Shown in pieces: positions 14,248 to 35,191 of a DNA stretch of 64,000 nucleotides. The notes under the pieces were generated by a model. The model was not told the DNA's origin. It saw only the letters and a program-made list of their open reading frames with translations, and searched no databases. Position numbers and translations under genes: made by a program. Source of the stretch: Rhizobium subbaraonis (lineage in GTDB: Bacteria; Pseudomonadota; Alphaproteobacteria; Rhizobiales; Rhizobiaceae); the NCBI RefSeq assembly GCF_900220975.1, contig NZ_OBQD01000002.1, positions 1 to 64,000 of the forward strand, read 5' to 3'. How positions within the stretch are numbered: the stretch's first letter is position 1; each line of letters starts with the position of its first letter.

Positions 14248-14283
14248 TGCATGCCTCCTGAGGATGGTATGGGATGTTGGGGT

Positions 14284-15057: not shown

Positions 15058-15058
15058 G

Positions 15059-15907: not shown

Positions 15908-15910
15908 CGC

Positions 15911-16924: not shown

Positions 16925-16928
16925 TGGC

Positions 16929-17969
16929 TCAGTTCGCGATTTCGCGGTTCCAGCGGTCGGTTATGGCCGGGCGCTTGGCGTTGACTTCGGACCAGTCAAA
17001 GAGACGCAGGTCCTCGATCGAACCGCCGCTGCCCCAAGGCAGCTTCCGCTCGATATCGGCAGAGAGCGCCACGCCGGTGATGGCCGGCCCGAGATAGAGC
17101 TTTTCAGCCAGACAGGTGGCCGCCTCAGGCGTCAACGCTGTGTCGATGAACTTGGCCGCAGCCTCGGCATTCTTGGTGCCCTTCACAATATGCATCCGCG
17201 CATCGGTTGCCCACACGCCTTCCTTGGGCACGGTAAAGCCGATCGGCAGACCGGCGTCGATCAGGTCCCAGGCGCCGACGTTGAAATGCGCGCCGATGAT
17301 GACTTCGTTGCTCTGGAACGCGTTCGAAGCGGCACCCGAGGTGTCATAGAGCAGCCCCGAATCCAGGGACTTCAGTTTGGCGAACGTCGCATCCATGCTT
17401 TCCGAGGCGTCGCCGAAGGCACCGGCGAGGAAGATCACGAAAGGCACGCCGGCGGAGTTGTTGGGCGACGGGACCGCCACGGCGCCGGCATAGGCGTCGT
17501 TCCACAACTCTTCCCAGCTGGACGGCGCCTCAGAGACTTCATTGGTGTTGTAGATGAGGCCGAGCGAATAATAGCCGGCGCTGACGGCGAAGACGTGGCC
17601 ACCGTTCTTGTAGGCCGCCTGCGGCTGAAGCGCAGTTGCATGGGGAAGCTGGGCAAGATCGATCGGTGCCAGCACGCCGGCGGCCTCGGCGATCTCGCTA
17701 ATGCCGCCATCCATGTAGGCGACGTCGATGACCGCATTTCCAGTCTGCTGCTGCAGCTTGGACAGGGTGGTGGTTGAATTGCCGATTTCGGCGACGACTT
17801 TGATTCCGGTGGCCTTCGAGAACGGCTGAGCGACACATGCGTCGAACGCCTCACCCCAGTTTCCACCGTAATAGGCAACGGTGATCGACTGCGAAGCGGA
17901 CTGGGCAAGCACTGCCTGCGGCATGCCGATAAGGCCGGCAACTGAGGCAAGCAATAAGCGTTTCATCAT
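16929..17969 (-). CDS. Extracellular solute-binding protein, PotD type
   Basis: 346 residues with a signal peptide (MMKRLLLASVAGLIGMPQA, cleavage after VLA) and a spermidine/putrescine-type binding fold (VAYYGGNWGEAFDACVAQPF, NTNEVSEAPSSWEELWND, ending RWNREIAN). First gene of the five-gene operon. The start could be either of the two leading Met codons. The pocket residues cannot be read well enough to name the ligand. The divergent regulator is of the type that often controls betaine and amino-acid-derivative genes. Confidence 0.92.
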   Translation of the reverse strand: MMKRLLLASVAGLIGMPQAVLAQSASQSITVAYYGGNWGEAFDACVAQPFSKATGIKVVAEIGNSTTTLSKLQQQTGNAVIDVAYMDGGISEIAEAAGVLAPIDLAQLPHATALQPQAAYKNGGHVFAVSAGYYSLGLIYNTNEVSEAPSSWEELWNDAYAGAVAVPSPNNSAGVPFVIFLAGAFGDASESMDATFAKLKSLDSGLLYDTSGAASNAFQSNEVIIGAHFNVGAWDLIDAGLPIGFTVPKEGVWATDARMHIVKGTKNAEAAAKFIDTALTPEAATCLAEKLYLGPAITGVALSADIERKLPWGSGGSIEDLRLFDWSEVNAKRPAITDRWNREIAN

Positions 17970-18052
17970 GTGATATCTCCGTCTCTGGGGTTCGCTTTGT
18001 GCGATTGGGAACTTTTTCCGGACACCACCATAGCAACAACCGCAACTTCCAT

Positions 18053-18081
18053 ATTGAACAATTCTGACACATGATTGAACA
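18053..18081 (+). promoter_or_regulatory. Direct repeat, candidate AraC-family operator
   Basis: ATTGAACA occurs at 18053-18060 and again at 18074-18081, a 21-base period (two helical turns), in the 142-base region between the divergent importer operon and the GlxA-type regulator. Direct half-sites two turns apart are typical of AraC-family binding. Confidence 0.5.
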
Positions 18082-18111
18082 TAGGCGACAAGTTAACACC
18101 TTAGGATCGCC

Positions 18112-19152
18112 ATGGGGACCGCGCCGGAAAGCAGCTTTGAGCTGCGTATCGCCTTCATATTGCAGAACAAGTTCACGTTGGCCGCGTTTTCGGGTTTCAT
18201 CGACGCACTCCGGCTTGCGGCCGACGATGCCGCAAAGAGCCGACAGATCCGCGTCGGCTGGGATGTCTATTCGCTCACCGGAGGGCAGGTGGCAGCCAGT
18301 TGCGGCGTCGCGGTCGCCACAATGCCGGGACTGCCCGATCCAAAGGGTTATGACTATGTCGCCATCTGTGGTGGCAACAGCTATGCCGACGACACGCCGG
18401 CTCCGGCTCTGATGCAACTGATCAAACTAGCGCATACGCAAGGGGTCGGGTTACTCGGCATCTGCACCGGCAGCTTCGCGCTGGCGCGGGCCGGGCTGGT
18501 GGACGAGCGGAGATACTGCATCCACTGGAACGTCATGGAGGCATTCAAGAGCCGGTTCCCACGTGCGCAGATTTCGCTGGACCGGATCTTCATCGACGAG
18601 GGCGATGTCATCACCTGCGCTGGATCGACAGCGGCGATCGATCTTGCCCTGTACATCATCGTGCGCCACTGCGGCTCCGAACGGGCAAGGCAGGTGATGC
18701 GACACATGATGATGACGTCGATGCGTCCTGCCAGCGTACCCCAAGCGCATTTTTTCCAATTGCCCCCCGACGGCACCGATACGCGCGTGCGCAAGGCACT
18801 GCATTTCATGGAGCAACAACTCGACCAGCCGCCCAATAACCTTGCTATAGCCCGCTATTGCTCCATTTCGCTCCGCCAATTGGAGCGGCTGTTCCGGGCC
18901 AACCTGAACCAGACACTTGGACAGGCCTTTCGCAGCATGCGGCTGAACTACGGGCGCTATCTGCTTTTAGGCGGGTCGCTCTCGGTGATGGAGATTGCTC
19001 ACATCACCGGTTTTGCCGATACAGCGCATTTCTCGCGGGAGTTTCGGAAGGCATTCGGAGAAACGCCAAGTGCCTTTCGCGCCCTCTCCCGTCGACCCAG
19101 CGCCGAGATCGGCAGTGAAGAGCGCGGCGCAGTCCGCGAGGCCGCCATATGA
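18112..19152 (+). CDS. GlxA-type transcriptional regulator (DJ-1/PfpI domain plus AraC HTH)
   Basis: 346 residues in two domains. Residues 10-190 form a class-I glutamine-amidotransferase/PfpI-like fold with the nucleophile-elbow segment GICTGSFALARAGL. Residues 220-325 carry two AraC helix-turn-helices (NLAIARYCSISLRQLERLF, and VMEIAHITGFADTAHFSRE followed by FGETPSAFR). This architecture includes ArgR, CdhR and GbdR of pseudomonads, which activate catabolism of arginine, carnitine and glycine betaine. Its divergent position suggests it activates the PotD-ABC-racemase operon in response to the imported compound. Confidence 0.92.
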   Translation: MGTAPESSFELRIAFILQNKFTLAAFSGFIDALRLAADDAAKSRQIRVGWDVYSLTGGQVAASCGVAVATMPGLPDPKGYDYVAICGGNSYADDTPAPALMQLIKLAHTQGVGLLGICTGSFALARAGLVDERRYCIHWNVMEAFKSRFPRAQISLDRIFIDEGDVITCAGSTAAIDLALYIIVRHCGSERARQVMRHMMMTSMRPASVPQAHFFQLPPDGTDTRVRKALHFMEQQLDQPPNNLAIARYCSISLRQLERLFRANLNQTLGQAFRSMRLNYGRYLLLGGSLSVMEIAHITGFADTAHFSREFRKAFGETPSAFRALSRRPSAEIGSEERGAVREAAI

Positions 19153-19777
19153 TCAACGCGACAGGCAGCCGAGGGCCGGCGCCCGACACTGCCGTCCCTC
19201 TCTCGGATCTCGGCGCAATTACGCTTTCGGACAAGACACACCCGATCAGCGCCATGGGTAGTGATGACGGACACAGCGCGCCGTTTGCAAACGTTGCCAG
19301 CCGATTGGAAAAAAGGATGCCGATAAATCCATGGTTACGCGGCACACGGTGATTTCAGAATTTCGCTGACCTCTTTGACCGCCGACGGGAGGGTGCGCAC
19401 CTTGCCCCCTTCGCCGGACAATCCTCCGCACCTGCTCCAACACCAAGTCTGTTGTCCATTTCAAGATCGTCTAAGGTGAAAAGAACCCGCGCTCGGCTTG
19501 CGGAGCACTAGCGCGCTTGACCTCGACAGCCACATCTCGCCAGCCTGCTCGAACACCCAGTCGATCTCTGCACCGTCGGCTCTGTAATAAAAGGAGCCAC
19601 ATCAGGCGAAGCCGCGCGCTATCACGACGATCAGTGCCCCCGGGGGCCAGCGCCGCACGCGCATCCCGGCGCAGTTTCCGCCGCAGCGCTCATCAAGATA
19701 ATCGCCAGTCTGCAACCCTGGTTGCCGGTGAGCGCGGAAGCTGACTAAAGCCCCCACACTCCGATGTCACAGGTGTT
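19153..19777. other. 625-base stretch without an intact gene
   Basis: Between the AraC-type regulator and the DhaKL gene, which converge, there is no intact coding sequence. The middle part is a decayed DUF4143-type ATPase tail (listed separately). The rest, 19600-19777, has broken frames on both strands and no clear hairpin. Confidence 0.5.
19335..19598 (-). pseudogene. Remnant of the C-terminus of an AAA-type ATPase with DUF4143
   Basis: On the minus strand three frames in succession read FYYRADGAEIDWVFEQAGE, then VAVEVKRASAPQAERGFF, then DDLEMDNRLGVGAGAE, with a last piece GKVRTLPSAVKEVSEILK before a stop. Together these match the nuclease-like C-terminal end of DUF4143 ATPases (FYR-DGAEIDxV, VEVK). 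At least two frameshifts separate the pieces, so it is dead. Confidence 0.55.
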
Positions 19778-21514
19778 TCAGGTTTCAAGCATCGCTGCGA
19801 GCATGAGCGCAGCGGACGCCGCGCCGGGGTCTATATGCCCGAGCGATCGCGCGCCCAGTTTCGCCGAACGGCCCCTGCGGCTCTCAATGGTGGCGGTCTC
19901 ATCCCTACCGGCGCGTGCAGCGTCCGTGGCCGCCTGCAAGACAGCGCATTCATCCGCACCGTTGCCAGCGGCAGTGACCGCAGCGTCCCCGGCCGGCACC
20001 CACGCGTCGAGCATGGTCTTGTCACCCGGCTTGGCACCGCCGCGCGACAGTATCCCGTCGCCCATACCCTTGACCCAGGCGGCCATGGCCGGGCCGTCGA
20101 GATTGAGCCGGTCGGAAACGGCCGCACCGGCGCTTTGAAACGCACTGGCGTAAAGCGGTCCCGACGATGCGCCGACCGCCGTCAGGAAGGCCTGGGCGAT
20201 CACGTCGCATGTCTCGGAGATCGTCGCATTCGCTTCCAGTTCGGAAAGAGCGGCGCTCACGGCCGTCCAGCCAATATCCATGGTGACGCCGTGGTCGCCG
20301 TCGCCGATGATCCCGTCAAGCTCGGAAAGCCAGTCGCGCTTCTCGCGGATGGTGGCCGCGACATTGGCCATCATCACGCGGAACCGCGCCGGCGTTATGC
20401 TTCCCGTCGTCCGCAAAAGCACAGCGTCGCGCTTGACGACGGGATTCTTGACCTGCACCTGACGCACACTGCGTTTTGCACTCGCCAGCGGGGCTGGCTC
20501 CATCGCGACCGTCAGCGCGGGCGTACGGCACGGATGATCGAGAAGGCGTGTCAGCGTATCGTCAAGCTTGAGGATCGTAACCGAAGCGCCCGCCATTTCC
20601 AGCGAGGTCGCGTATTCGCCGACCCAGCGGGCGTGGATGTGAATTCCCTTGTTCTGAAGAATATGGTGCACGCGGCGGAACAGCACGAACAGTTCGAGCT
20701 GCGTCGTTGCGCCAAGCCCGTTGACCAATACGGCGACACTGTCGCCGTTGTGAAGTTCCAGTTCCGCAAGGATCGGTTCCATCAGAATATCAACGACGGC
20801 ATCGGCGCTGGCAAGCGGCACGCGGCGCATACCCGGCTCGCCATGGATCCCCATGCCGATCTCCATATCCTCCGGCCCGATCTCAAAGTTCGGCGTGCCC
20901 GTCTGAGGCAATGAGCACGCTCCTAGAGCAACGCCCATGGAGCGGCACTTCTCATTGGCAAGTCGTGCCAGCGCTTCGACCTGCTCAAGCGGCTCGCCCA
21001 GGTCGGCAGCGGCCCCCGCGCATTTGAAGACGAAGAAATCGCCGGCGACACCGCGACGCTCTTCCCGCCGCGCGAAGGGCGCGGATGCAATGTCATCGGT
21101 TACGGCGACATGGCGAACCGGCGTTCCCTCGCCGGCCAGTTCCTCCGCCGCCATGGTGAAGTTCAGAACGTCGCCCGTGTAATTGCCGTAGAGGAATACG
21201 ACGCCAGCGCCGCCATCGGCCGCGCGTCCGGCATCGAGGATCTGCTGCGGCGAGGGAGAGGCAAAGACATTGCCGACGGCCGCCGCGTCGGCAAGGCCGC
21301 GGCCGACATAGCCCGCGAAAGCCGGCTCGTGGCCTGATCCGCCCCCGATGACGATGCCAACCTTGCCGTCGCGCGGTCCGTGCCGCGCCACCACGGCCCG
21401 ACCCGTCGGGCCCTCCACCGTCAGGAGATCCGGCCACGCGCCAACAAGCCCTTCGATGAATTCCGCGATGATATCGTCGGGTGCATTGATGAGCTTCTTG
21501 GTCTTTATCGTCAT
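19778..21514 (-). CDS. Dihydroxyacetone-kinase family protein, DhaK-DhaL fusion
   Basis: 578 residues, the length of ATP-dependent dihydroxyacetone kinases. The N-terminal DhaK part has GGGSGHEPAFAGYVG at 58-71 and the substrate-binding His in EIGMGIHGEPG (His224), which forms a hemiaminal with a keto group. The C-terminal DhaL part has the Mg-ATP motif IIGDGDHGVTMD. The family phosphorylates dihydroxyacetone and, in characterised cases, other small ketoses such as erythrulose. It is last of a five-gene operon with a split transketolase, SDR and TIM-barrel protein. I infer a C4-C5 ketose substrate rather than dihydroxyacetone alone. Confidence 0.93.
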   Translation of the reverse strand: MTIKTKKLINAPDDIIAEFIEGLVGAWPDLLTVEGPTGRAVVARHGPRDGKVGIVIGGGSGHEPAFAGYVGRGLADAAAVGNVFASPSPQQILDAGRAADGGAGVVFLYGNYTGDVLNFTMAAEELAGEGTPVRHVAVTDDIASAPFARREERRGVAGDFFVFKCAGAAADLGEPLEQVEALARLANEKCRSMGVALGACSLPQTGTPNFEIGPEDMEIGMGIHGEPGMRRVPLASADAVVDILMEPILAELELHNGDSVAVLVNGLGATTQLELFVLFRRVHHILQNKGIHIHARWVGEYATSLEMAGASVTILKLDDTLTRLLDHPCRTPALTVAMEPAPLASAKRSVRQVQVKNPVVKRDAVLLRTTGSITPARFRVMMANVAATIREKRDWLSELDGIIGDGDHGVTMDIGWTAVSAALSELEANATISETCDVIAQAFLTAVGASSGPLYASAFQSAGAAVSDRLNLDGPAMAAWVKGMGDGILSRGGAKPGDKTMLDAWVPAGDAAVTAAGNGADECAVLQAATDAARAGRDETATIESRRGRSAKLGARSLGHIDPGAASAALMLAAMLET

Positions 21515-21594
21515 GGCGTTCTCCTCCTGCCGGACGCACTTCGTCCCTGACGGCCATTTATGGCCGCCCCCTCAATTCTTGCCCGAAAGGGCCC

Positions 21595-22419
21595 TCAGGC
21601 CTGATGTTTGCCCGGCACCAACCGCTTGGCGGCGGCAACGGTGCGGCCAAGCCAGACATGTTCCAGTTGCCGCGTGGCTTCCATATCGTCGGACTGCGGC
21701 AACCAATGTTCGAGGATGACGCTCATGTCGTCAGGGCAATGGGCGAGCGTTCCGAGAATTTCCTCGATCTCGGCCCTCCCCTCCGACAAGGGCGTGCCGT
21801 GGATGCGGAAACCGACACCATAGGGATCCGGCGTGATTTCGTAGTCCTTGAGATGCAGGTTGATCGTGTAGGGTGCCAGCATCTTCACCGTGGTCATCGG
21901 CCACTCGCCGGCGCAGATGGAATTGGCAACGTCGAGGCAGACGCCGAGCGCGTCGTCGGCCACAGCATCGAGAAGCTCGACCATGCGGGGCGACGGATAG
22001 TTGAAGTGGTTTTCGATGGCGAAACGCAGGCCGGCGCGCTTGCCGTCCGGAAGAAGTTCTCGGATTTGCGCGGCCAGTTCCGGCACGGGGATCTGCGCAT
22101 CCTCCGCATCGAGCGCGACCCGCAGGATTTTCGAACCGATGCGCTCGCCGATGGGAATATAGCGCGCGAGTTCTTCCGCATCGAAGGACTGCGTGCCGAC
22201 CTCCAACGCCATGCCGTAACCGTCGGCGCGCGCCTTGAGGGCGAGGTGTTCTTCAGCGGTCAGCCGATCGAGCGGCAGGTTATCGGCATATTGCACAAGC
22301 GACAGGCCGTGCTGGTGGGCGATCTCCAGGACCTCCATCGCCGTCATCGGCTTTGCCGGCTGCAGATCCTTGATGCCGATCGACCAGCGGAAGGCGTAGC
22401 TTCCCAATCCCAGTTTCAT
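21595..22419 (-). CDS. TIM-barrel sugar isomerase/epimerase-family protein (Hyi/OiaC-like)
   Basis: 274 residues, xylose-isomerase-like (AP_endonuc_2) barrel. Likely metal ligands are Glu136 (FAIENH), Asp163 (CLDVANS), His189 (LHLKD) and Glu237 (VILEHW). A good Shine-Dalgarno (GGGGAGGA) precedes the ATG. Relatives include hydroxypyruvate isomerases, 3- and 4-epimerases of ketoses, and decarboxylases of branched 3-oxo sugar acids (OiaC). Placed between an SDR and a DHA-type kinase, it could make the keto sugar that is then phosphorylated. Whether it isomerises or decarboxylates cannot be decided from the sequence. Confidence 0.85.
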   Translation of the reverse strand: MKLGLGSYAFRWSIGIKDLQPAKPMTAMEVLEIAHQHGLSLVQYADNLPLDRLTAEEHLALKARADGYGMALEVGTQSFDAEELARYIPIGERIGSKILRVALDAEDAQIPVPELAAQIRELLPDGKRAGLRFAIENHFNYPSPRMVELLDAVADDALGVCLDVANSICAGEWPMTTVKMLAPYTINLHLKDYEITPDPYGVGFRIHGTPLSEGRAEIEEILGTLAHCPDDMSVILEHWLPQSDDMEATRQLEHVWLGRTVAAAKRLVPGKHQA

Positions 22420-22472
22420 GCATTCCTCCCCGGATGCGGGGCCGGCACATCAAAACGCACCGGCCGGCAAGA

Positions 22473-23231
22473 TCAGTGAATGAGCGAGCCGCCGTTCACA
22501 TCGACTTCAGAGCCCGTGACATAGGCCGAAAGATCCGAAGCGAGGAACAGCGCGCAGCCGGCGACGTCATCCGCTGTACCGGCGCGGCCCATCGGGATGC
22601 CGAGCTTGATCTCTTCCAGCTTTTCCGGCGTCAGCATGCCGCCGGTGATGTCGGTGGCGATGAAGCCGGGGCAGATCGCGTTGACGCGGACATTGTCGGG
22701 TGCCAGTTCACGCGCCATCGCCTTGGTGAGGCCCAGCACGCCGGCCTTGGCGGCGGAGTAGTGCGGGCCGCCGAAGATGCCGCCGCCGCGTTGGGCGGAG
22801 ACCGAGGAAAGGTTCACGATCTTGCCTTCCTTGCGCGAGCGCATGTGCGGAATGACCGCCTGGCTGCAATACAGCGTGCCGCGCAGGTTCACATCGAGCA
22901 CGGCATCGTAATTCTTCGGCGCGATTTCCATGATCTTTAGCGGCTGGGTGATGCCGGCATTGTTGACGAGGATATCGATCTGACCCCACTTGGCGGCCAG
23001 CGCGTCGAAAACCTTCTTTACGCCTTCGAGATCGGTGACGTCGCACGCCATGCCGATATGCTGCGGACCGAGATCGGCGGCAGCCTCCTTCGCGGCGCCC
23101 TCATCGAGGTCGAGGATCGCGACGGTCGCGCCGTGTTCGGCGAAAAGCTTTGCCGTCGCCTTGCCGAGACCGCGCTTGGATGCCGCGCCGGTGACGACGG
23201 CGAATTTGCCCTGAAGCAGAGCAGTAGCCAT
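22473..23231 (-). CDS. Short-chain dehydrogenase/reductase
   Basis: 252 residues, classical SDR. Cofactor motif TGAASKRGLG near 14-23, Asp in AILDLD favouring NAD(H), NNAG near 90, and the catalytic Ser-Tyr-Lys set (NLSSVS, then YSAAKAG). It ends with an FabG-like tail (YVTGSEVDVNGG). It probably oxidises or reduces a hydroxyl of the sugar handled by this operon. It lies between the transketolase subunits and the TIM-barrel gene. Confidence 0.9.
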   Translation of the reverse strand: MATALLQGKFAVVTGAASKRGLGKATAKLFAEHGATVAILDLDEGAAKEAAADLGPQHIGMACDVTDLEGVKKVFDALAAKWGQIDILVNNAGITQPLKIMEIAPKNYDAVLDVNLRGTLYCSQAVIPHMRSRKEGKIVNLSSVSAQRGGGIFGGPHYSAAKAGVLGLTKAMARELAPDNVRVNAICPGFIATDITGGMLTPEKLEEIKLGIPMGRAGTADDVAGCALFLASDLSAYVTGSEVDVNGGSLIH

Positions 23232-23294
23232 GAGGTTTCTCCCTTGATAGCCGCGCCCGGCCTTCTGCCGCGGCGCAAATTCGTTGAAAAATGG

Positions 23295-24341
23295 TCAGAG
23301 CCAGCCGCGGATCTGCGTGATCATTGCGGCAGTCGAGATGCCATAACGATCGTGCAGTGTCGGAAGTGCGCCCGCATCGAGGAACTGGTCCGGCAGACCG
23401 ATCATGCGGAAGGTGGGCGTTACGCCATTCGTCAGCAGCGTGGAGGCAACCGCCTCGCCGAGACCGCCCACCTTCGTATGGTTTTCCGCCGTGACGACGA
23501 GACGATTACCTTTGCCGGCTTCGGCAAGGATCGTTGCCGTATCGAGCGGCTTGATTGTCGGGCAATGCAGCACGGCGGCGGAAATGCCCTGCGCTTCCAG
23601 TTCGACGGCGGCATCAAGCGCCCGCATCGTCATGAAGCCAGAAGCAATCACGAGCACGTCCTTGCCGTCTCGCAGAAGCTTGGCCTTGCCGAGTTCGAAT
23701 TTGTAATCCGGGCAATGCTTGCGGATGACGGACGGCACCTTGCCGCGCGGCAGGCGCATATAGACCGGCCCTTCATGCGCCGTGATGGCGGGAACGGCTT
23801 CCATCACGTCGATGGCGTCGCACGGATCGACGATCGTCAGGTTGGGTAGGCCGCGGAAGATCGCGAGGTCCTCTGTCGCCTGGTGGCTTGGCCCGTAGCC
23901 GGTCGTCAGGCCCGGCAGGGCGCAGACGATCTTGACGGGCAGATATTCCTCCGCGATCGCCATGGCGATGAAATCATAGGCGCGTCGCGAGGCGAAGACG
24001 GCATAGGTGGTGGCGAAGGGAATGAAGCCCTCGCGCGCCATGCCGGCGGCGGCCGATATCATCACCTGCTCGGCCATGCCCATCTGGTAGAACCGTTCGG
24101 GAAAAGCCTGGGCAAAGATATGAAGGTCGGTGTATTTCGAAAGATCGGCGGTGAAGCCGACGACGCGGTCGTTCTTTTTCGCTTCCTCCACCAGCGCGTG
24201 GCCGAAGGGTGCTGAAACCGTATCATAGCCTTCGGCCGCCAATGAGGCGATCATCGCGGATGTGCGTCCGCCTTCGCCGGGCTTCGGCGGCATGCGGGCT
24301 TCCCATTTCCGGTGCGGGTCGTATTTGTGCGTGGCAGTCAT
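23295..24341 (-). CDS. Transketolase C-terminal subunit (split transketolase)
   Basis: 348 residues from ATG 24341, preceded by GGGAGGATC. A 45-residue N-terminal extension (HKYDPHRKWEARMPPKPGEG) leads into the pyrimidine-binding domain with the TPP-activating Glu91 in QMGMAEQ, the substrate loop TTGYGPSHQATEDLAIFRG, and the C-terminal transketolase domain. Together with the upstream gene it forms a two-subunit transketolase. Split enzymes of this kind act on unusual ketoses, for example apulose-4-phosphate (AptAB) and sulfo-sugars (SqwGH). A housekeeping transketolase would normally be one chain of about 660 residues. Confidence 0.9.
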   Translation of the reverse strand: MTATHKYDPHRKWEARMPPKPGEGGRTSAMIASLAAEGYDTVSAPFGHALVEEAKKNDRVVGFTADLSKYTDLHIFAQAFPERFYQMGMAEQVMISAAAGMAREGFIPFATTYAVFASRRAYDFIAMAIAEEYLPVKIVCALPGLTTGYGPSHQATEDLAIFRGLPNLTIVDPCDAIDVMEAVPAITAHEGPVYMRLPRGKVPSVIRKHCPDYKFELGKAKLLRDGKDVLVIASGFMTMRALDAAVELEAQGISAAVLHCPTIKPLDTATILAEAGKGNRLVVTAENHTKVGGLGEAVASTLLTNGVTPTFRMIGLPDQFLDAGALPTLHDRYGISTAAMITQIRGWL

Positions 24342-24355
24342 TGCGTGATCCTCCC

Positions 24356-25210
24356 TCATTCCGGCCGGTTCGCATCGAGAACGGCGAGCGCTTTCTGCCA
24401 CTCGTCCGCCTCGACCCGCACGAAATGCGTGATCTCGCGCTCTTCGAGAAAGGGTACGCCCTTGCACATGATCGTGTCGCAGATGATGACGCGGGGCTTG
24501 GCTCCCTTGAGGTTGCGGGCCACATCGAAGGCCGCGACGAGCGCGGCGATATCGTTGCCGTCCACGCGCTGGACATGCCAGCCGAAGGAGGCCCACTTAT
24601 CCGCGAGTGGCTCGGAGCACAGCATGTCCGTCGACTTGCCATCGGCCTGCTGATCGTTGAAATCGACGATGCAGACGAGATTGTCGAGCTTGTGATGGGC
24701 TGCCGACATCGCGGCTTCCCAGGTAGAGCCCTCACCGAGTTCGCCATCCGACATCAGATTGTAGACGAAGGCCGGGTTCTTCTTGGCCTTGAGGCCGAGC
24801 GCCATGCCGACGCCGATGCCCAGCCCCTGGCCAAGCGATCCGCCGGTAATTTCCATGCCGGGCGTGTAGGCTGCCATACCGGACATCGGCAGGCGGCTGT
24901 CATCGGTCCCGTAGGTTTCCAGCTCCTGCTCCGGCAGGATGCCGGCCTCTATCAACGCTGAATAAAGCGCGATGGCATAATGGCCGATGGAAAGCAGAAA
25001 GCGGTCGCGTCCTTCCCATTCCGGTTCATCCGGCCGATAGGCAAGCGCGTGGAAGTAGGAAACGGAGAGAACATCGGCAATACCGAGCGCCTGCCCGACA
25101 TAGCCCTGACCCTGCACCTCGCCCATGCGAACGGCCTTGCGGCGGATTTCCCAAGCGCGTCGCGCAAGGCTCATGTTCGACAGCGTCGCCGTCGTGGCCT
25201 GAGTGGTCAT
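24356..25210 (-). CDS. Transketolase N-terminal subunit (split transketolase)
   Basis: 284 residues from ATG 25210 (MTTQATTATLS); a longer frame to 25285 is unlikely. It contains the TPP pyrophosphate domain: GQGYVGQALGIADVLSVSYF, GHYAIALY, EITGGSLGQGLGIGVGMAL, and the Mg-TPP motif SDGELGEGSTWEA followed by IVDFNDQQ. The usual GDG is SDG. First gene of the minus-strand operon, 14 bases before the C-terminal subunit and divergent from a TRAP operon. Confidence 0.9.
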   Translation of the reverse strand: MTTQATTATLSNMSLARRAWEIRRKAVRMGEVQGQGYVGQALGIADVLSVSYFHALAYRPDEPEWEGRDRFLLSIGHYAIALYSALIEAGILPEQELETYGTDDSRLPMSGMAAYTPGMEITGGSLGQGLGIGVGMALGLKAKKNPAFVYNLMSDGELGEGSTWEAAMSAAHHKLDNLVCIVDFNDQQADGKSTDMLCSEPLADKWASFGWHVQRVDGNDIAALVAAFDVARNLKGAKPRVIICDTIMCKGVPFLEEREITHFVRVEADEWQKALAVLDANRPE

Positions 25211-25495
25211 GATTCCTCCCGTCTCGTCCGGCGCATCCCGGCGCCAACGGCCGACAGTACTGCCGCGGAAAAAAACAACCTTCAATTAAGTTATTCGAAC
25301 ATGTTGTTTAGAAAAACTTAGATGACGCACCCCTCAAGATAGGCGAGCTTCATGGAAGCGGGCGAGGAGGACGTTCCGCTGCATGATCTGCTCAGTCGCC
25401 GCCGCCACTCTTGCGGCATATCGACTGTCGCAGGATCACGCAGTGTCGGAGGCTTCCCTTTCGCGTATACAACCCACGCCTTAGGGAGGAGTGAC
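25211..25495. promoter_or_regulatory. Divergent promoter region, transketolase operon and first TRAP operon
   Basis: 285 bases with no gene. An AT-rich core at 25268-25320 contains the palindrome AACATGTT (25298-25305) flanked by AACAAC and GTTGTT, and outer arms TAAGTT and AACTTA. This probably holds both promoters and an operator. The candidate regulator is the LysR gene at 29262-30236 or the GntR gene at 33386-34045. Confidence 0.45.
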
Positions 25496-26470
25496 ATGAA
25501 ATTTCGCCATCTACTGACAGCCGTTGCCTTTGCGTTCTGCGCCAGCACGGCAAATGCCCAGACATTCCAGCTGTCTCACAATGCAGGCGCCGGCAATCCG
25601 AAGGATGTCGCCTCGCTGAAGTTCTCCGAGATCGTCAAAGAAAAGTCGGGCGGCCGCCTTCAGGTTGACGTCGGCGGTGCCGCGCAGTTCGGCGACGACG
25701 CCGAGACCATCACAAACATGCGCCTTGGCACGATTGCCTTTTCGGCAAACTCGCAGGGCACCACCTCTGCGGTCGTGCCTGAGATTGCACTTCTGGGCCT
25801 GCCCTTCCTGTTCCAGAACCTCGAGCAGGCCGAAGCCGTAATGGACGGCCCGGTCGGCGACAAGATTGCAGCCGCCGCCGAAGCGCAGGGGCTGGTCGTC
25901 CTTGGATGGTGGAACAACGGCATTCGTGAAGTGTCCAATTCCAAGAAGCCGATCGTGACGCCGGAAGACCTGAAGGGCATGAAAATCCGCACGCCGCCGG
26001 ATCCGATGACGATCGACATTTTCGAAGCGCTCGGCGCCTCGCCGACTCCCATGGCCTTCTCCGAGCTTTACATCGCGCTCCAGCAGGGCGTGGTCGATGG
26101 TCAGGAAAACCCGCTGATCAACATTTATTCGTCGAAGCTGCATGAAGTGCAGCCCTTCATCTCGATGAGCAACCACAAGTACGAGGCGACCCCCTTCCTG
26201 GCTTCGAAGATCGTCTTTGATGGCCTCTCCGCCGAAGACCAGGAAATCGTCCGCGCTGCCGCCAAGGAAGCCGGTGAGCTGAACCGAAAGATGGTACGCG
26301 ACCAGTCGAACGAACTGCGCGCCACGCTTGAGGCAGCCGGCATCAAGTTCAACGAGGTCGATCCCGCACCTTTCGTTGCGGCCACGCAGCCGGTCTACGA
26401 AAAGTGGCGTGCCCAGTATCCGGAACTCGTCGATGAACTCATCGCAGCGGCCAAGGAAGCCGCCCAGTGA
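25496..26470 (+). CDS. TRAP transporter solute-binding protein, DctP family (copy 1)
   Basis: 324 residues with a signal peptide (MKFRHLLTAVAFAFCASTANA) and GGGAGGAG before the ATG. The DctP landmarks are present: the Arg in MKIRTPPDPMT that normally binds a substrate carboxylate, ALGASPTPMAFSELYIALQQ, and VDGQENPLINIYSSKL. This favours an acidic or hydroxy-acid ligand, although the family is broader. It is paralogous to the protein at 32110-33087. It overlaps the DctQ gene by one base. Confidence 0.94.
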   Translation: MKFRHLLTAVAFAFCASTANAQTFQLSHNAGAGNPKDVASLKFSEIVKEKSGGRLQVDVGGAAQFGDDAETITNMRLGTIAFSANSQGTTSAVVPEIALLGLPFLFQNLEQAEAVMDGPVGDKIAAAAEAQGLVVLGWWNNGIREVSNSKKPIVTPEDLKGMKIRTPPDPMTIDIFEALGASPTPMAFSELYIALQQGVVDGQENPLINIYSSKLHEVQPFISMSNHKYEATPFLASKIVFDGLSAEDQEIVRAAAKEAGELNRKMVRDQSNELRATLEAAGIKFNEVDPAPFVAATQPVYEKWRAQYPELVDELIAAAKEAAQ

Positions 26471-27036
26471 TGACGGCGGCTCCTGTTCGGGCAACGGATG
26501 GCAAGGCGGGTTCTCCCGTCTTGCACATCGCCAATCTGGCCGGGCGCGCGCTCGATCAGATTGCAATCGTCATCGCCGTCTCCTCCGTCGTCGTCATCTT
26601 CCTGGCCCTGATGGCGGAAGTCGTCGTTCGCTATTTCACCTCTGCCGGACTAGGCTGGCCGAACGAAGTGCCCAACCTGCTCTTCCCGTGGTTGATCATG
26701 GGCGGCATCGTCGTCGGCGCCCAGCGCGGTGCCCACATCGCGGCCGAAGCGCTACGCTCCATGCTGGACGCGGCGAAGCTGCGCCTTCTGCTGATGGCCA
26801 TCAATCTGCTCGTAGCCATTTCGTTCGCCTACCTCGCCTGGCTTTCCCTGCAGGTAATCCAGATCACCAAGGTCCAGGTCTTTCCCATGACCGGTCTTGG
26901 CCAAGCCTGGGCGTACAGTTCTCTTCTCTTCGGCTTCGGCGGCATCGCGCTGGCGGCCGTCGTCAATCTCATTCGGGTGGCCTACGCAGCGGATCCGCGG
27001 CTTATCCACCAGACGGAAACGGAGCATATGACATGA
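26470..27036 (+). CDS. TRAP transporter small permease, DctQ family (copy 1)
   Basis: 188 residues, four membrane helices, with the motif VVRYFTSAGLGWPNEVPNLL followed by LIMGGIVVGAQRGAHIAAEA. The start is taken at ATG 26470, overlapping the binding-protein stop by one base; a GTG three bases earlier is possible. It pairs with the large permease, with which it overlaps by ATGA. Confidence 0.93.
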   Translation: MTAAPVRATDGKAGSPVLHIANLAGRALDQIAIVIAVSSVVVIFLALMAEVVVRYFTSAGLGWPNEVPNLLFPWLIMGGIVVGAQRGAHIAAEALRSMLDAAKLRLLLMAINLLVAISFAYLAWLSLQVIQITKVQVFPMTGLGQAWAYSSLLFGFGGIALAAVVNLIRVAYAADPRLIHQTETEHMT

Positions 27037-28292
27037 CAGCCGTCATGACCGGCATTTTCGCCGTCCTTCTGGCCCTGTCCGTCCCTGTCGGCTATGCGCT
27101 GATCATCGCCGCCGGCACGGCCATTCTATTCCATGGCGGAACGCCCACGGTGCTCGCCGTTGTCAAGCTGTTCCAGCCCACTCAGAGCTTCCCGCTGCTG
27201 GCCATTCCCTTCTTCATTTTGTCCGGCTCGCTGATGATGTCGGGCACGCTCGGCCAGAAGCTCGTGCAGTTCGCAGCCGCTCTCGTCGGCCGCTTCCATG
27301 GCGGTATGGGCCAGGTCACCGTCGTCGGCTCCACCATTTTCGGTGGCGTCTCCGGGTCCGCGGTGGCGGAAGCATCAGCGCTCGGTTCCATGCTGATCCC
27401 CTGGCAGAAGCGTGAGGGCTATCCGGCCGGTTTTGCCGCCGCCGTCACAGCCTCGTCCTCGACGATCGCGGGTCTCATTCCGCCGTCGATTCCGCTCATC
27501 CTCTATTCCACCGTCTCCAATGCCTCCATCGCAGCACTGTTCTCAGCCGCTGTTCTGCCCGGCCTGATGCTCGCCGCCGGCATGATGCTGGTCTGCTACC
27601 TGTCGGGTCGTATCCGCAATTTTCCGCGGCTCACCGACCAGACGCATCTGCGCTCCGTCGGCAAATCGATACTTTCCGCCCTACCCGCGCTGCTGATGCC
27701 GTTCTTCATCGTCGTGCTGCTGCGCGCCGGCATAGCAACGCCGACCGAGGTCAGCGTCATCGCAGTGTTCTATGCGCTTGTCGTCAGCCTCGTTGTCTAC
27801 CGCGACCTGACCTGGGCACGCCTCCATGAGGCCCTGGTGGGCACCGTGATTACCACCGGCATCGTCATGCTGGTCATTACCGCCTCCAGCCTGGTCGGCC
27901 ACGTCCTCATCACCGAGCGTGTTCCAACGATTGTGGCGCAGTGGGCGCAGGACACGCTGGTCAATGCCATTCTGATCATCCTCATGATGAACGTCATCAT
28001 GCTCGTGGTCGGCATGTTCCTCGACCTGCCGGCAGCGATCCTGTTGCTGGGGCCGACCTTCGTGGCTATCGGGCAGGCGATCGGCTTGGATCCAATCCAG
28101 CTTGGCATCATGATCTGCATCAATCTGTCGATCGGCCTCTTCACGCCGCCCATCGGCACCACGCTGTTCATCGGCGCGGCCATAGCGCGCGTGCCGATCG
28201 GCGCCGTCGTCAAGGAGCTCTGGCCCTTCTATCTCGTCGCCTTCATGGTGCTGATACTGATGTCATACGTTCCGGCACTCACAATCTATTGA
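27033..28292 (+). CDS. TRAP transporter large permease, DctM family (copy 1)
   Basis: 419 residues, about 12 membrane helices, GGVSGSAVAEASALGSMLIP in the first half and the re-entrant TPPIGTTLFIGAAIA near the end. It is the sodium-coupled channel of the TRAP system. The start ATG overlaps DctQ by four bases. Its C-terminal half is nearly identical to the copy at 30288-31547. Confidence 0.95.
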   Translation: MTAVMTGIFAVLLALSVPVGYALIIAAGTAILFHGGTPTVLAVVKLFQPTQSFPLLAIPFFILSGSLMMSGTLGQKLVQFAAALVGRFHGGMGQVTVVGSTIFGGVSGSAVAEASALGSMLIPWQKREGYPAGFAAAVTASSSTIAGLIPPSIPLILYSTVSNASIAALFSAAVLPGLMLAAGMMLVCYLSGRIRNFPRLTDQTHLRSVGKSILSALPALLMPFFIVVLLRAGIATPTEVSVIAVFYALVVSLVVYRDLTWARLHEALVGTVITTGIVMLVITASSLVGHVLITERVPTIVAQWAQDTLVNAILIILMMNVIMLVVGMFLDLPAAILLLGPTFVAIGQAIGLDPIQLGIMICINLSIGLFTPPIGTTLFIGAAIARVPIGAVVKELWPFYLVAFMVLILMSYVPALTIY

Positions 28293-28299
28293 GGACAGC

Positions 28300-29181
28300 A
28301 TGACCAAGACCATCGCCTTCGTCGGGCTGGGCTCCATGGGCCTGCCCATGGCCACCAACCTGGCCAAGACCGGATACGCCGTCCATGGCTTCGACACGCG
28401 GCCGCAAGCCATGGACGCGCTTGCCGCAGCTGGCGGGGTCCGCCCCGAAAGCGTCGCATCGGCCTGCCAGCATGCCGATGCTCTGATCCTCATGGTGGTC
28501 AACGCCGCCCAGGCGCGGACCGTGCTAATCGAGGCCGGAGCGCTCGCCGCGCTTCCCGCCGGCGCGCATGTCTGCCTCATGGCAACATGCCCGCCGGACG
28601 AGGTCACGGCGCTGGAAACCGAGGTCCGGGCAGCTGGCAAGCGCCTCGTCGACTGCCCCGTCTCCGGCGGAGTCGTCGGCGCGAAGGCCGCGACCCTGAC
28701 CATCATGGTCGGCGCGGCGAAGGAGGACTTCGACGCCGTCGCGCCGATCCTTCGCGCCATGGGCGACAAGCTCTACCATTGCGGCCAGAAGGTCGGACAG
28801 GGCGCGGTCGTCAAGGCGATCAACCAGCTTCTCTGCGGTGTTCACCTGGCCGCGGCGGGTGAAGCCATGGCGCTGGGCGAAAAGGCCGGCGTCGATGTTG
28901 CAACTCTTCTCGAGATCGTCTCCGGCTCGGCGGCCTCGAGCTGGATGCTGAAGGACCGGGGCCCGCGCATGCTGATGGAAACACCGCCGGTAACGAGCGC
29001 TGTCGACATCTTCGTCAAGGATCTCGGCATCGCACTTTCCGCCGGGCGTTCCGCGGGCATGGGACTGCCGCTGGCAGCCGCCGCGCATCAGATGTTCCTG
29101 GCAGAAAGCGGTAGCGGAAACGGTCTGGCCGACGACAGCCAGGTCGTCGCTGCCTACCGGCGCCTCAACGGCATCTCTTGA
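28300..29181 (+). CDS. NAD-binding beta-hydroxyacid dehydrogenase (LtnD-like)
   Basis: 293 residues of the 3-hydroxyisobutyrate dehydrogenase family. Cofactor motif FVGLGSMGLPMA at 8-18, substrate motif DCPVSGGVVGAKAATLTIM near 118-136, catalytic Lys172 and Asn175 in KAINQLLCGVHLAA. The CGVHLAAA segment and length resemble L-threonate dehydrogenase (LtnD), which oxidises four-carbon sugar acids. It follows the TRAP permease gene by seven bases, so the imported compound is probably a hydroxy- or sugar acid that it oxidises, feeding the divergent transketolase/kinase operon. Confidence 0.88.
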   Translation: MTKTIAFVGLGSMGLPMATNLAKTGYAVHGFDTRPQAMDALAAAGGVRPESVASACQHADALILMVVNAAQARTVLIEAGALAALPAGAHVCLMATCPPDEVTALETEVRAAGKRLVDCPVSGGVVGAKAATLTIMVGAAKEDFDAVAPILRAMGDKLYHCGQKVGQGAVVKAINQLLCGVHLAAAGEAMALGEKAGVDVATLLEIVSGSAASSWMLKDRGPRMLMETPPVTSAVDIFVKDLGIALSAGRSAGMGLPLAAAAHQMFLAESGSGNGLADDSQVVAAYRRLNGIS

Positions 29182-29261
29182 CATCGACGGCACGCCGCCG
29201 CCCATTGGCGAACGGCGTGCCGGATCTTCCCCGGCACGCCCCCTATCGTGCGGAGACCGGC

Positions 29262-30236
29262 GTGGCCATCAATCCCAATCTGAACTCGCTTGCCTATTTC
29301 GAGGCCGTGGCCCGCACCGGGCGCGTGTCGCTGGCCGCCGCAGAACTCGGCGTCTCCGCTGCCGCCGTCAGCCAGCAGCTCAAGCAGCTTGAGGAGCAAT
29401 GGGGTGTGCGCCTCTTTCGCCGCAAGGACCGACGTCTGACGCTCACGCTCGATGGCGAGATGCTCTTCCAGGCGACCACGAATGCCTTCCGCATGATCCG
29501 GGGCGCGCGCGCCGTTGTCCTGCGCCAGCGCAACAGCTGGCAACTGACCGTGCGCTCCAGCCCGAGTTTCGCCGTTCGATGGCTGACGCCCCGCCTGAAA
29601 CATTTTCTGGATGCCAATCCCGACTGGGGCGTGCGTGTCGATGCAACACCGGATTTCTCCGACTTCGAAACGGAGGCGATCGATCTCGACATGCGCTACG
29701 GCGCTGGCGCGTGGGAGGGCCTGCACACCGAATGCATCATCAACGACTTCTTCCTGCCGATGTGCAGCCCGGCCTATCGCGATGCGCTCGCCGCCCTCAA
29801 CAGCGATCCGGCCGGCCTGCTCGCCAATGCGCGGCTGATCCACTCGGTCAAAACGCTTTACCAATGGGATGCCTGGCTGCTGGTTCACGGAATTGATCCG
29901 CCACTGGAACAGGCACCGCTGCGGTTCGACCGATCCTCGATGGCGATCCAGCTGGCGCGCGACGGCGCCGGCGTCGTGCTCGATTCCGCAACGTTAGCCC
30001 AAGAGGACCTTGAGCGAGGAACGCTCGTGCCGCTGTCGACCACCTTCGAAGTCGTCGAATTTCCGGCCTACTGGATCGCCTGCCCGCCTCGCCACGTCAA
30101 CCGGCGCACCGTTCGGATCTTCTCCGACTGGATCCGCGAACAGGGCCGCAGTTTCGACCGGCAGGCCCGCTCCTTGCTGACAGAGCTAGGCTGCCGGATC
30201 CGGTTCGCCACCGACGACGAACCGGTCCTTCGATAA
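29262..30236 (+). CDS. LysR-family transcriptional regulator (GcvA-like)
   Basis: 324 residues from GTG 29262, with GGAGA eight bases upstream; the frame is open to a TTG at 29178. Helix-turn-helix GRVSLAAAELGVSAAAVSQQ near 22-41, followed by LKQLEEQWGVRLFRR. The effector domain resembles GcvA-type regulators (VRSSPSFAVRWLTPRL). It lies between the two inverted TRAP operons and reads with the first. It probably controls one or both. Confidence 0.9.
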   Translation: MAINPNLNSLAYFEAVARTGRVSLAAAELGVSAAAVSQQLKQLEEQWGVRLFRRKDRRLTLTLDGEMLFQATTNAFRMIRGARAVVLRQRNSWQLTVRSSPSFAVRWLTPRLKHFLDANPDWGVRVDATPDFSDFETEAIDLDMRYGAGAWEGLHTECIINDFFLPMCSPAYRDALAALNSDPAGLLANARLIHSVKTLYQWDAWLLVHGIDPPLEQAPLRFDRSSMAIQLARDGAGVVLDSATLAQEDLERGTLVPLSTTFEVVEFPAYWIACPPRHVNRRTVRIFSDWIREQGRSFDRQARSLLTELGCRIRFATDDEPVLR

Positions 30237-30287: not shown

Positions 30288-31547
30288 TCAGTACATCGTG
30301 AAAGCCGGGACGTAGGATATCAAGCCGAGTACGGCCGCAGCGACAAGATAGAAGGGCCAGAGCTCTTTGGCCACCACGCCGATGGGCACGCGGGCGATGG
30401 CCGCACCGATGAACAGCGTGGTGCCGATGGGCGGCGTGAACAGTCCTATCGACAGATTGATACAGATCATGATGCCAAGCTGGATTGGATCCAGGCCGAT
30501 CGCCTGCCCGATGGCCACGAAGGTCGGTCCCAGCAAAAGGATCGCTGCCGGCAGATCGAGGAACATGCCGACAACCAGCATGATGACGTTCATCATGAGG
30601 ATGATCAGGATCATCGTGCCCAGCGTCTGTTGCGCCCATTGCGCCACCATGGTGGGGACCCGCTCGGTGATGAGCACATGGCCGACCAGGCTGGAGGCGG
30701 TGATGACAAGCATGACGATGCCCGTCGTGACGACCGTTCCGACCAGCGCGGCATAGATGCTCTTGAAGGTCAGATCACGGTAGACGACGGCGCTGACGAC
30801 AAGCGCATAGAACACCGCGATGACGCTGACCTCGGTCGGAGTGGCGATGCCGGCGCGAAGCAGAAGAACGATGAACAGCGGCATGGCGAGCGCTGGGAGA
30901 GCCGAAACGAGCAGCTTGCCGAAGGGCGGGAAATGCGAGCGATCGGTGAGCCGCGGGAAATTGCGGATACGACCCGACAGGTAGCAGGCCACCATCATGC
31001 CGGCGGCGAGCATCAGGCCGGGCAGGATGCCGGCCGTGAACAGCGCTGCGATGGAGACGTTGGCGACGGTTGAATAGAGAATGAGTGGGATCGATGGCGG
31101 GATAAGACCGGCGATCGTCGCCGAGGAGGCGGTGACGGCGGCGGCAAAACCGGCCGGATAGCCCTCGCGCTTCTGCCAGGGGATCAGCATGGAACCGAGC
31201 GCCGAGGCTTCCGCCACGGCCGAGCCGGAGACGCCGCCGAAGATGGTCGAGCCGACGACAGTCACCTGACCCATGCCGCCATGGAAGCGTCCGACGAGGG
31301 CAGCGGCGAGCTGGACAAGCCTCTTGCCGAGCGTGCCGGACATCATCAGCGAGCCGGCGAGGATGAAGAAGGGGATGGCAAGCAGAGGGAAGCTCTGGGT
31401 CGGCTGAAACAGCTTGACGACCGCAAGCACCGTCGGCGTTCCGCCATGCCACAGGATGGCACCGCCGGAGGCGATGATGAGGGCGTATCCGACCGGCATG
31501 GAGAGTGCCAGAAGGACCGCGAAGATGGCGAGCATGATCGCAGTCAT
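30288..31547 (-). CDS. TRAP transporter large permease, DctM family (copy 2)
   Basis: 419 residues, exactly the length of copy 1. It shares long identical runs, such as FLDLPAAILLLGPTFVAIGQ and the TPPIGTTLFIGAAIA re-entrant segment. It starts at ATG 31547 and overlaps the DctQ gene by four bases. It faces the LysR gene at its 3' end across 51 bases. Confidence 0.95.
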   Translation of the reverse strand: MTAIMLAIFAVLLALSMPVGYALIIASGGAILWHGGTPTVLAVVKLFQPTQSFPLLAIPFFILAGSLMMSGTLGKRLVQLAAALVGRFHGGMGQVTVVGSTIFGGVSGSAVAEASALGSMLIPWQKREGYPAGFAAAVTASSATIAGLIPPSIPLILYSTVANVSIAALFTAGILPGLMLAAGMMVACYLSGRIRNFPRLTDRSHFPPFGKLLVSALPALAMPLFIVLLLRAGIATPTEVSVIAVFYALVVSAVVYRDLTFKSIYAALVGTVVTTGIVMLVITASSLVGHVLITERVPTMVAQWAQQTLGTMILIILMMNVIMLVVGMFLDLPAAILLLGPTFVAIGQAIGLDPIQLGIMICINLSIGLFTPPIGTTLFIGAAIARVPIGVVAKELWPFYLVAAAVLGLISYVPAFTMY

Positions 31548-32110
31548 AATGCGTGCTCCGGATCGGATTGGTTCAAGAATTGCGGGTCCTGCGCGAAGGC
31601 GACCCGCACGGTGTTGACCAGCGAGGCGAGCGCGATGCCGCCGAAGCCGAAGAGCAGGGCGGAATAGGCCCAGGCCTGGCCCAGCCCCGTCATCGGGAAA
31701 ACCTGGGCCTTGGTGATGGCGATGACCTGGAGCGAGAGCCAAGCGAGGTAAGCGAAGGCGAAGGCGACGAGCACATGCAGCAGCACGAGAAGCTTGCGCA
31801 GTTGCTCGGTGCTTAGAAAGCTACGGATGGCCTCGGCGGCGATATGGGTTCCGCGCTGTGCACCGATGACGATGCCGCCCATGACGAGCCAAGGGAAGAG
31901 TAGGTTCGGCACCTCGTTGGGCCACCCAAGGCCGGCGGAGGTGAAATAGCGCACGACGACCTCGGCCATCAGCGCCATAAAGATGGCAACGATGGAGCCG
32001 ACGGAGATCACGATGGCGGCGTAGTCGATGAAGAGACCGGCCATGTTGGAGACGCGCAAGGCGGGCGGACCCGCCTTGACGTCATAGAGGGGGGAACTGG
32101 GCCGTCCCAT
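31544..32110 (-). CDS. TRAP transporter small permease, DctQ family (copy 2)
   Basis: 188 residues, the same length as copy 1, sharing VVRYFTSAGLGWPNEVPNLL and the segment around AQVFPMTGLGQAWAYS. Four membrane helices. The start ATG overlaps the stop of the binding-protein gene by one base, as in copy 1. Confidence 0.93.
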   Translation of the reverse strand: MGRPSSPLYDVKAGPPALRVSNMAGLFIDYAAIVISVGSIVAIFMALMAEVVVRYFTSAGLGWPNEVPNLLFPWLVMGGIVIGAQRGTHIAAEAIRSFLSTEQLRKLLVLLHVLVAFAFAYLAWLSLQVIAITKAQVFPMTGLGQAWAYSALLFGFGGIALASLVNTVRVAFAQDPQFLNQSDPEHAL

Positions 32111-33087: not shown

Positions 33088-33385
33088 GACTATCCTCCAC
33101 TTGTTGTCACGAACGGTACAGCGTTTCGGGCTCCCCACCCGAACATTGGGCCAAGCAACGGCAACACAGACCCTCGCGCACCTGATCGACAGGTGTCGCT
33201 GGCGTGATACCAATCTGGCTTGGTTGAACAGACGCTCCTGTTTCAGGGAACGCCGATCAGATCGCTCTCCTCCTGGGAACGAACCGATCCTTGCTGCATT
33301 CAGATTGCAGTTTCCATCTGCGGCGCGGCCGCCTGTTTCCGTACCGGCCACTGAATATTGATCATGAACACCTCTCCTACCGTTT
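33088..33385 (-). promoter_or_regulatory. 298-base leader upstream of TRAP copy 2
   Basis: No gene. It contains the inverted repeat ACCAA, six bases, TTGGT at 33209-33224, a form compatible with a FadR/GntR-type operator, and a GGAGGATAG ribosome-binding site just before the binding-protein start. It separates the GntR gene from the transporter it probably controls, so the transporter likely has its own promoter. Confidence 0.4.
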
Positions 33386-34045: not shown

Positions 34046-34075
34046 CGCCTTCCCTCTGGGCACCGCAGGGCCTCT

Positions 34076-35185: not shown

Positions 35186-35191
35186 CGTCGT

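Follow-up and report, generated by a model that had tools for sequence, protein, structure and literature searches.

A putative sugar-acid utilisation locus of Rhizobium subbaraonis that combines dehydrogenases with a two-subunit transketolase of changed active site

The stretch of DNA analysed here, hereafter the window, comprises 64,000 nucleotides (nt) of Rhizobium subbaraonis contig NZ_OBQD01000002.1, and all coordinates refer to it as a whole. It carries two divergent conserved operons, at 19778-25210 on the minus strand and 25496-30236 on the plus strand, recognised from open reading frames and Pfam matches over curated cut-offs, which together encode a split transketolase (TK, with halves TK-N and TK-C), two dehydrogenases, a TIM-barrel enzyme, a kinase of the dihydroxyacetone (DHA) type and a tripartite ATP-independent periplasmic (TRAP) importer. 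We read them as a sugar-acid utilisation locus in which import by the TRAP system, oxidation by one or more dehydrogenases and cleavage by the TK are joined by a second arm formed by the barrel and the kinase, an outline that we regard as evenly balanced between right and wrong. More tentatively, and at somewhat less than an even chance, we propose that a widespread and partly mobile module of a dehydrogenase and a split TK of a Tyr/Ser type uses thiamine diphosphate (ThDP) to cleave keto acids directly, and that a barrel isomerase or decarboxylase and a DHA kinase were added to it in Rhizobiaceae and Rhodobacteraceae. The observations behind both statements are intact genes of recognised families, their conserved linkage, a near-constant pairing of dehydrogenase and TK, a changed TK site and transporters of acid type, from which we infer the substrates, the reactions and their order. 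The features are as follows:

19778..21514, minus strand: DhaKL, single-chain dihydroxyacetone-type kinase (DhaK+DhaL); Dak1 404 bits, Dak2 148 bits, PRK14479 631 bits (cut-off 492)
21595..22419, minus strand: xylose-isomerase-like TIM barrel (isomerase/epimerase fold); AP_endonuc_2
22473..23231, minus strand: short-chain dehydrogenase/reductase (SDR); adh_short_C2 245 bits
23295..24341, minus strand: TK-C (pyrimidine-binding and C-terminal domains); Transket_pyr 119.5 bits, Transketolase_C 95.7 bits; start set by the ribosome-binding site in GGAGG-ATG
24356..25210, minus strand: TK-N (ThDP-binding), Tyr37/Ser110 subfamily; Transketolase_N 148 bits
25211..25495, no strand: divergent intergenic region, the gap between the divergent starts
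25496..26470, plus strand: DctP, TRAP solute-binding protein; DctP 294 bits, Arg/Arg/Asn carboxylate residues
26467..27036, plus strand: DctQ, TRAP small permease; DctQ 77 bits
27033..28292, plus strand: DctM, TRAP large permease; DctM 437 bits
28300..29181, plus strand: LtnD-like beta-hydroxyacid dehydrogenase; NAD_binding_2 and NAD_binding_11; best NCBIfam model L-threonate dehydrogenase, 283.2 bits, below the cut-off of 350
29178..30236, plus strand: LysR regulator; HTH_1 and LysR_substrate; true start possibly further downstream

The interval 19778-29181 holds nine intact genes, all in the families that a preliminary description had named, and the LysR gene, outside that interval, closes the plus-strand operon. 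Transcription of the minus-strand operon runs from TK-N over TK-C, SDR and barrel to DhaKL, with 14 nt between the TK halves and then gaps of 63, 53 and 80 nt, and that of the plus-strand operon from DctP over DctQ, DctM and the LtnD-like dehydrogenase to LysR. The region 25211-25495 is probably regulatory for both, and a sigma-70-type scan returned no site in it. The signature motifs of DhaK (GIHGEPG), DhaL (DGDHG), the SDR (Ser and Tyr-x3-Lys) and the beta-hydroxyacid dehydrogenase (Lys/Asn) are all found, with what we take to be their usual roles, the DhaK motif presumably carrying the covalent His. With its Dak1 and Dak2 domains and this motif, DhaKL belongs to the DAK family, of which the host genome (6.58 Mb, 85 contigs) has undergone an expansion, encoding eight Dak1 domains. 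The TK is of the split type, with Transketolase_N, Transket_pyr and Transketolase_C spread over two chains, and among solved structures both halves come closest to the split-gene transketolase of Carboxydothermus (6yak/6yaj), whose alpha2beta2 architecture is to be expected here as well.

The preliminary description had ordered these enzymes into a single chain, from the acid over a dehydrogenase, the barrel and the DHA-type kinase to the TK. The neighbourhoods of the TK pair sustain the idea of a locus for sugar acids that has its own dedicated split TK, and reveal a core smaller than that chain, whose order they do not bear out. Relatives of TK-N (E up to 1e-40) occur in 202 of 72,556 plasmid records, and a phylum-wide sample of 398 genomes contains 22 with a TK-N at least 67% identical, two at 55% and otherwise matches of at most 43%. 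We read 40 TK loci (17 hand-picked plasmid records and 23 genome stretches), 37 of which encode a TK-N that is at least 60% identical; the host genome, G323 and the near-identical plasmid matches H1-H4, H6 and H7 are not among these 37. A dehydrogenase accompanies the TK in 36 of them, being an SDR of at least 55% identity in 34 and the LtnD-like enzyme, in its place, in two (L102 and L158); a LysR regulator (at least 29%) is present in 32. Two dehydrogenase families that are unrelated by Pfam thus fill one slot beside the TK, which argues for an oxidation ahead of TK cleavage. A barrel of the window type and a DAK protein were each seen in just one of the 37 loci, and 35 have neither within about 8-10 kb, so that the TK seems not to need their products. 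The barrel and DhaKL look like an add-on module, and the dehydrogenase and TK like the functional unit.

The same minimal cassette of TK, SDR, TRAP and LysR adjoins Tni-type transposition and mobilisation genes on a Sulfitobacter plasmid (L106, pTHAF37_f 18140-38961) that is typed as mobilisable; there, it looks mobile.

The TK of the core departs from canonical transketolases at its active site, to which we take His26 of E. coli TktA to belong: in the window TK-N, alignment to TktA places Tyr (Tyr37) at His26 and Ser (Ser110) at His100. Among 100 distinct TK-N sequences, grouped by identity and not by residues, all 83 of at least 50% identity read Tyr/His/Ser/His at the four positions compared; the other 17 have His at all four (13), His wherever readable (3) or Tyr and Asn (1, L144). 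In a maximum-likelihood tree, the 84 rows of this clade (83 distinct) all lie beyond a single branch with support of 100/93, and L144 is their sister. The available text of PMC7661550 counts H66, H100, G114 and H473 as donor-binding and reports that mutations of R358, S385, D469 and R520 alter aldehyde use; it also gives His at position 100 for the Carboxydothermus enzyme, unlike the Ser, and the Tyr at position 26, of the window family. The TK may therefore use an altered donor and perhaps an altered acceptor.

Under the outline that we favour, the TRAP system would bring in a hydroxylated carboxylic acid of sugar-acid type, and the SDR would form an alpha-ketol acid from it by oxidising one of its hydroxyls to the ketone, with the LtnD-like dehydrogenase possibly doing likewise for another isomer or carbon. 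The two-subunit Tyr/Ser-type TK would cleave this ketol and transfer the ketol unit, the simplest acceptor being one of the sugar phosphates of the pentose phosphate pathway, and the leftover aldehyde would enter central metabolism. As a second arm, the barrel might isomerise or decarboxylate a short keto compound, which DhaKL would phosphorylate to triose (or tetrulose) phosphate, the simplest kinase substrate being dihydroxyacetone. We found no description of a direct ThDP-dependent cleavage of keto acids for any sugar-acid pathway in the open-licence literature.

The position of the Ser also raises the question of whether the TK is a decarboxylase: the dehydrogenase would yield a 2-oxo acid of the hydroxypyruvate type, and the TK would decarboxylate it as 1-deoxy-D-xylulose 5-phosphate (DXP) synthase does pyruvate, with an aldehyde as the acceptor of the acyl unit. 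His100 is precisely where the donor sites of TK and DXP synthase differ, and its mutation raises the use of pyruvate (available part of PMC7661550); 2-oxo acids are what LtnD-type enzymes yield (available part of PMC12540250); and among single-chain structures TK-C scores higher against DXP synthases (152 bits) than against human TK (125 bits). The DXP synthase residue is Phe and not Ser, however; TK-C is nearest to the split TK (235 bits), its best NCBIfam model is a transketolase (239 bits; dxs scores 194), and the barrel and DhaKL would be left without a reason, so that we consider this reading improbable.

How firmly the second arm belongs to the locus was assessed from the barrel. A pattern scan with a six-member barrel alignment against 84,980 species genomes gave 102 confirmed loci, the best 80 of which, with the window, form a set of 81: group A, with barrels of at least 60% identity (56), and group B, with more distant ones (25). 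The closest named loci are those of Rhizobium rhizolycopersici and Shinella, and one same-genus genome preserves all ten genes in identical order at 95-99% identity. In group A, 41 loci, the window among them, extend over at least 20 kb; in these, where genes counted as missing may sit beyond 10 kb, we observe TK-N in 32, TK-C in 32, SDR in 33, DhaKL in 26, DctP in 28, the LtnD-like enzyme in 21 and LysR (at least 33%) in 35. All 32 loci with TK-N have the SDR, and in all 26 with both barrel and DhaKL the two are adjacent on one strand. This recurrent linkage, together with the ten-gene order, shows that the cluster is no chance assembly.

Even so, the locus might consist of two independent modules, with LysR, TRAP, SDR and TK serving one acid and the barrel and DhaKL another compound, as the absence of a window-type barrel from 36 of the 37 TK loci and the four loci with barrel and DhaKL and no TK within about 10 kb (L042, L045, L049, L068) would suggest. 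TK and DhaKL occur together, however, in 22 of the 41 full-flank loci, over several families, and the set has been repeated with non-orthologous parts in genome G736, where a TK (70%), an SDR (58%) and TRAP genes stand with a DAK protein only 39% identical, a barrel of another PF01261 family (36% identical to the Sphaerotilus barrel of L115) and, near the DAK gene, a transaldolase. This independent recurrence of barrel and DAK beside the TK is the best evidence for one shared pathway, and we hold two separate modules to be rather improbable. The transaldolase would be expected if C2 units feed the pentose phosphate pathway.

Several observations count against the shared pathway and the core as outlined: 1) none of the 14 cassette members compared retains R358, S385, H461 or D469 of TktA, which leaves a sugar-phosphate acceptor unproven, even if R520 is kept in all 14 and AptB, from a cluster found in organisms that grow on apiose (available part of PMC13001218), likewise lacks the same four residues; 2) one of the 37 TK loci (L153) has no recognised dehydrogenase; 3) 16 of the 37 have neither transporter type at the thresholds used; 4) among the 41 full-flank loci, ten have the TK without DhaKL (within about 10 kb), four DhaKL without the TK and five neither, so that the two arms are separable; and 5) a xylose-isomerase-like gene typical of group B, c8, is found in 4 of the 56 group A loci (L060, L070, L071, L073), which, with a group B locus that has SDR, DhaKL and LtnD-like enzyme as in group A (L079), means that the groups are not sharply separate.

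The barrel itself says little about its reaction. At E 0.001 it matched no NCBIfam model, the OtnI model NF043033 included, and its predicted fold resembles those of many isomerases and epimerases to much the same degree; with the D-tagatose/D-psicose 3-epimerase and Art22 isomerase family it shares the fold at 11-19% identity in the listed structures. The preliminary label 'OiaC-like' could thus not be substantiated, although the lack of an OiaC entry among its sequence-model and fold matches proves nothing. E136, D163, H189 and E237 are invariant in 41 sequences and presumably form a metal site.

As to the substrate, transport and oxidation speak for a sugar acid or the corresponding lactone, as judged from sequence: SDR and LtnD-like enzyme share a slot, the carriers are of acid type, and lactonase-like genes accompany some of the cassettes. 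A DctP of at least 40% identity is found in 15 of the 37 TK loci and a Pantoea-type major facilitator superfamily (MFS) carrier of at least 55% in six, 21 in total; the latter is nearest to the D-galactonate transporter group, below the cut-off (347 of 395 bits). A carboxylate-binding Arg had been claimed for the window DctP, and alignment shows the full Arg, Arg, Asn site of TRAP systems for carboxylates. Its near solved relatives include 4p9k and 4pdh, whose ligands are reportedly pantoate or erythronate. Others are 7bbr, with 2-keto-3-deoxygluconate, and 4x8r, with glucuronate, and in such proteins Arg, Arg and Asn bind the carboxylate (available part of PMC11668362). Any single substrate is nonetheless unlikely to be the right one.

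Tetronates suit the chemistry best. The SDR would form 3-oxotetronate (HOCH2-CO-CHOH-COO-) from D-erythronate or threonate, or else the LtnD-like enzyme and the barrel, as a stand-in for OtnI, would form it via 2-oxotetronate; the TK would then release glyoxylate and a C2 unit, and easy decarboxylation would supply dihydroxyacetone to DhaKL. This accounts for every gene together, and it fits with L-threonate dehydrogenase as the best NCBIfam model of the LtnD-like enzyme, with erythronate as a reported ligand of the close DctP structures, and with OtnK and OtnC near barrel relatives in 4 of the 25 group B loci (L094-L097; three Devosia and one other Rhizobiales). The known LtnD-OtnI-OtnK-OtnC pathway (PMC12540250 and PMC10580937, in the parts available) has in common with the locus an LtnD-like dehydrogenase, a PF01261 barrel and hydroxy-acid import. 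The interval, in contrast, lacks OtnK and OtnC and has TK and DhaKL; its dehydrogenase stays below the LtnD cut-off, and its barrel has no OtnI match. Moreover, L102 and L158 pair the LtnD-like enzyme with the TK and have no barrel recognised nearby. The preliminary statement that OtnK is absent holds for the interval and fails for the genome, which elsewhere encodes an OtnK (C63:33174-34400; L194 9136-11051; 542 bits, cut-off 350) with an adjoining OtnC-like gene (45%). The usual tetronate route thus seems to be present already, which weakens tetronates as the substrate, and we consider them unlikely.

In the Devosia and other Rhizobiales loci just mentioned, and in L018, the barrel relative stands with a xylose-isomerase-like gene, OtnK and OtnC; L018, the one among them that was scanned by family, also has a mutarotase, a Gfo/Idh dehydrogenase, an SMP-30 protein and an isopropylmalate-dehydrogenase-like enzyme, and one gene without a Pfam match that appears glycosidase-like by eye.

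A further match of the LtnD-like enzyme is to tartronate semialdehyde reductase (208 bits, below the cut-off of 341), as would suit a pentonate that the SDR oxidises at C4: the TK would free tartronate semialdehyde, which the LtnD-like enzyme, being of the HIBADH type, would reduce to glycerate, and the barrel, acting like a hydroxypyruvate isomerase, would return hydroxypyruvate to the TK. Fuconolactonase-like amidohydrolase genes with sugar ATP-binding cassette (ABC) genes in 7 of the 37 TK loci, as for aldonolactones, would agree with this. DhaKL, however, would have no role left and the barrel matches no hydroxypyruvate isomerase model, which makes a pentonate very unlikely.

The closest precedent for a dedicated split TK is the D-apiose pathway of AptAB, AplK and ApsI, which is said to go back to Carter et al. 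in 2018. In E. coli SE15 (available part of PMC13001218), it likewise has a split TK in a small dedicated catabolic cluster. The kinship to AptAB that had been proposed extends to this two-gene architecture and not to orthology, the window halves being just 37% and 31% identical to AptA and AptB and falling on a separate tree branch, with Tyr/Ser where AptAB has His/His. The SE15 cluster, moreover, has an FGGY kinase and a ribose-type ABC importer and the window DhaKL and a TRAP system; among the genes of 18112-30236 no FGGY kinase was found, as had been stated, and the Dak1/Dak2 protein is the sole kinase. An apulose-like route could still be imagined, in which the locus makes a branched ketose, the TK acts on the free ketose to give dihydroxyacetone, and DhaKL stands in for the FGGY kinase. 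This chemistry assigns DhaKL an exact role, and L192, from another lineage, clusters DhaK, DhaL and a split TK. Group B, too, carries c8 (23 of 25 loci), often with a mutarotase (12 of 25); the best match of c8 is 3ktc, and it is about 30% identical to a gene, taken to be D-apiose isomerase, that adjoins aptA, aptB and the FGGY kinase in two same-phylum genomes. None of the 25 group B loci has a TK of the Tyr/Ser clade, though; the transporters look acid-type, the window TK is not AptAB, that of L192 is of the His/His type, and no c8-type gene was seen in the window cluster. We regard this route as highly doubtful.

L192 (G859 C21:36000-55900) is in itself a candidate for another DAK-transketolase route, with DhaK, DhaL, triose phosphate isomerase, the His/His split TK, a xylose-isomerase-like enzyme, a mutarotase, a TctABC transporter, a 2-hydroxyacid dehydrogenase and glycerate kinase, and no FGGY kinase recognised.

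The gene combination had been described as unmatched, and we too found no described pathway with this set in the open-licence literature. A dedicated catabolic TK is of a known kind; there is a real chance that the reaction is new. Most genes of the Tyr/Ser clade are annotated just as 'transketolase' among the records listed, a label that conceals a clade of its own, altered at the active site, that travels almost always with a dehydrogenase and often with an acid importer. If keto acids are cleaved, sugar acids from plants would have a new way into the pentose phosphate pathway of Rhizobium, Agrobacterium, Bradyrhizobium, Paracoccus, Pantoea and other hosts, and the TK would be a new ThDP biocatalyst.

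Upstream of the locus lie a DJ-1/AraC regulator (18112-19152) and, by eye, a polyamine-type ABC system (13234-17969); no link of the genes in 13234-19152 to the TK island was seen. Downstream, a second TRAP system at 30288-36610, probably a neighbouring, separate module, adjoins a GntR regulator, an iron-type alcohol dehydrogenase and an aldehyde dehydrogenase that is nearest to the acylating sulfoacetaldehyde dehydrogenase SauS (504 bits, below the cut-off of 600); in the same-genus genome, the DctP of this second system is 75% identical to the first DctP of the window.

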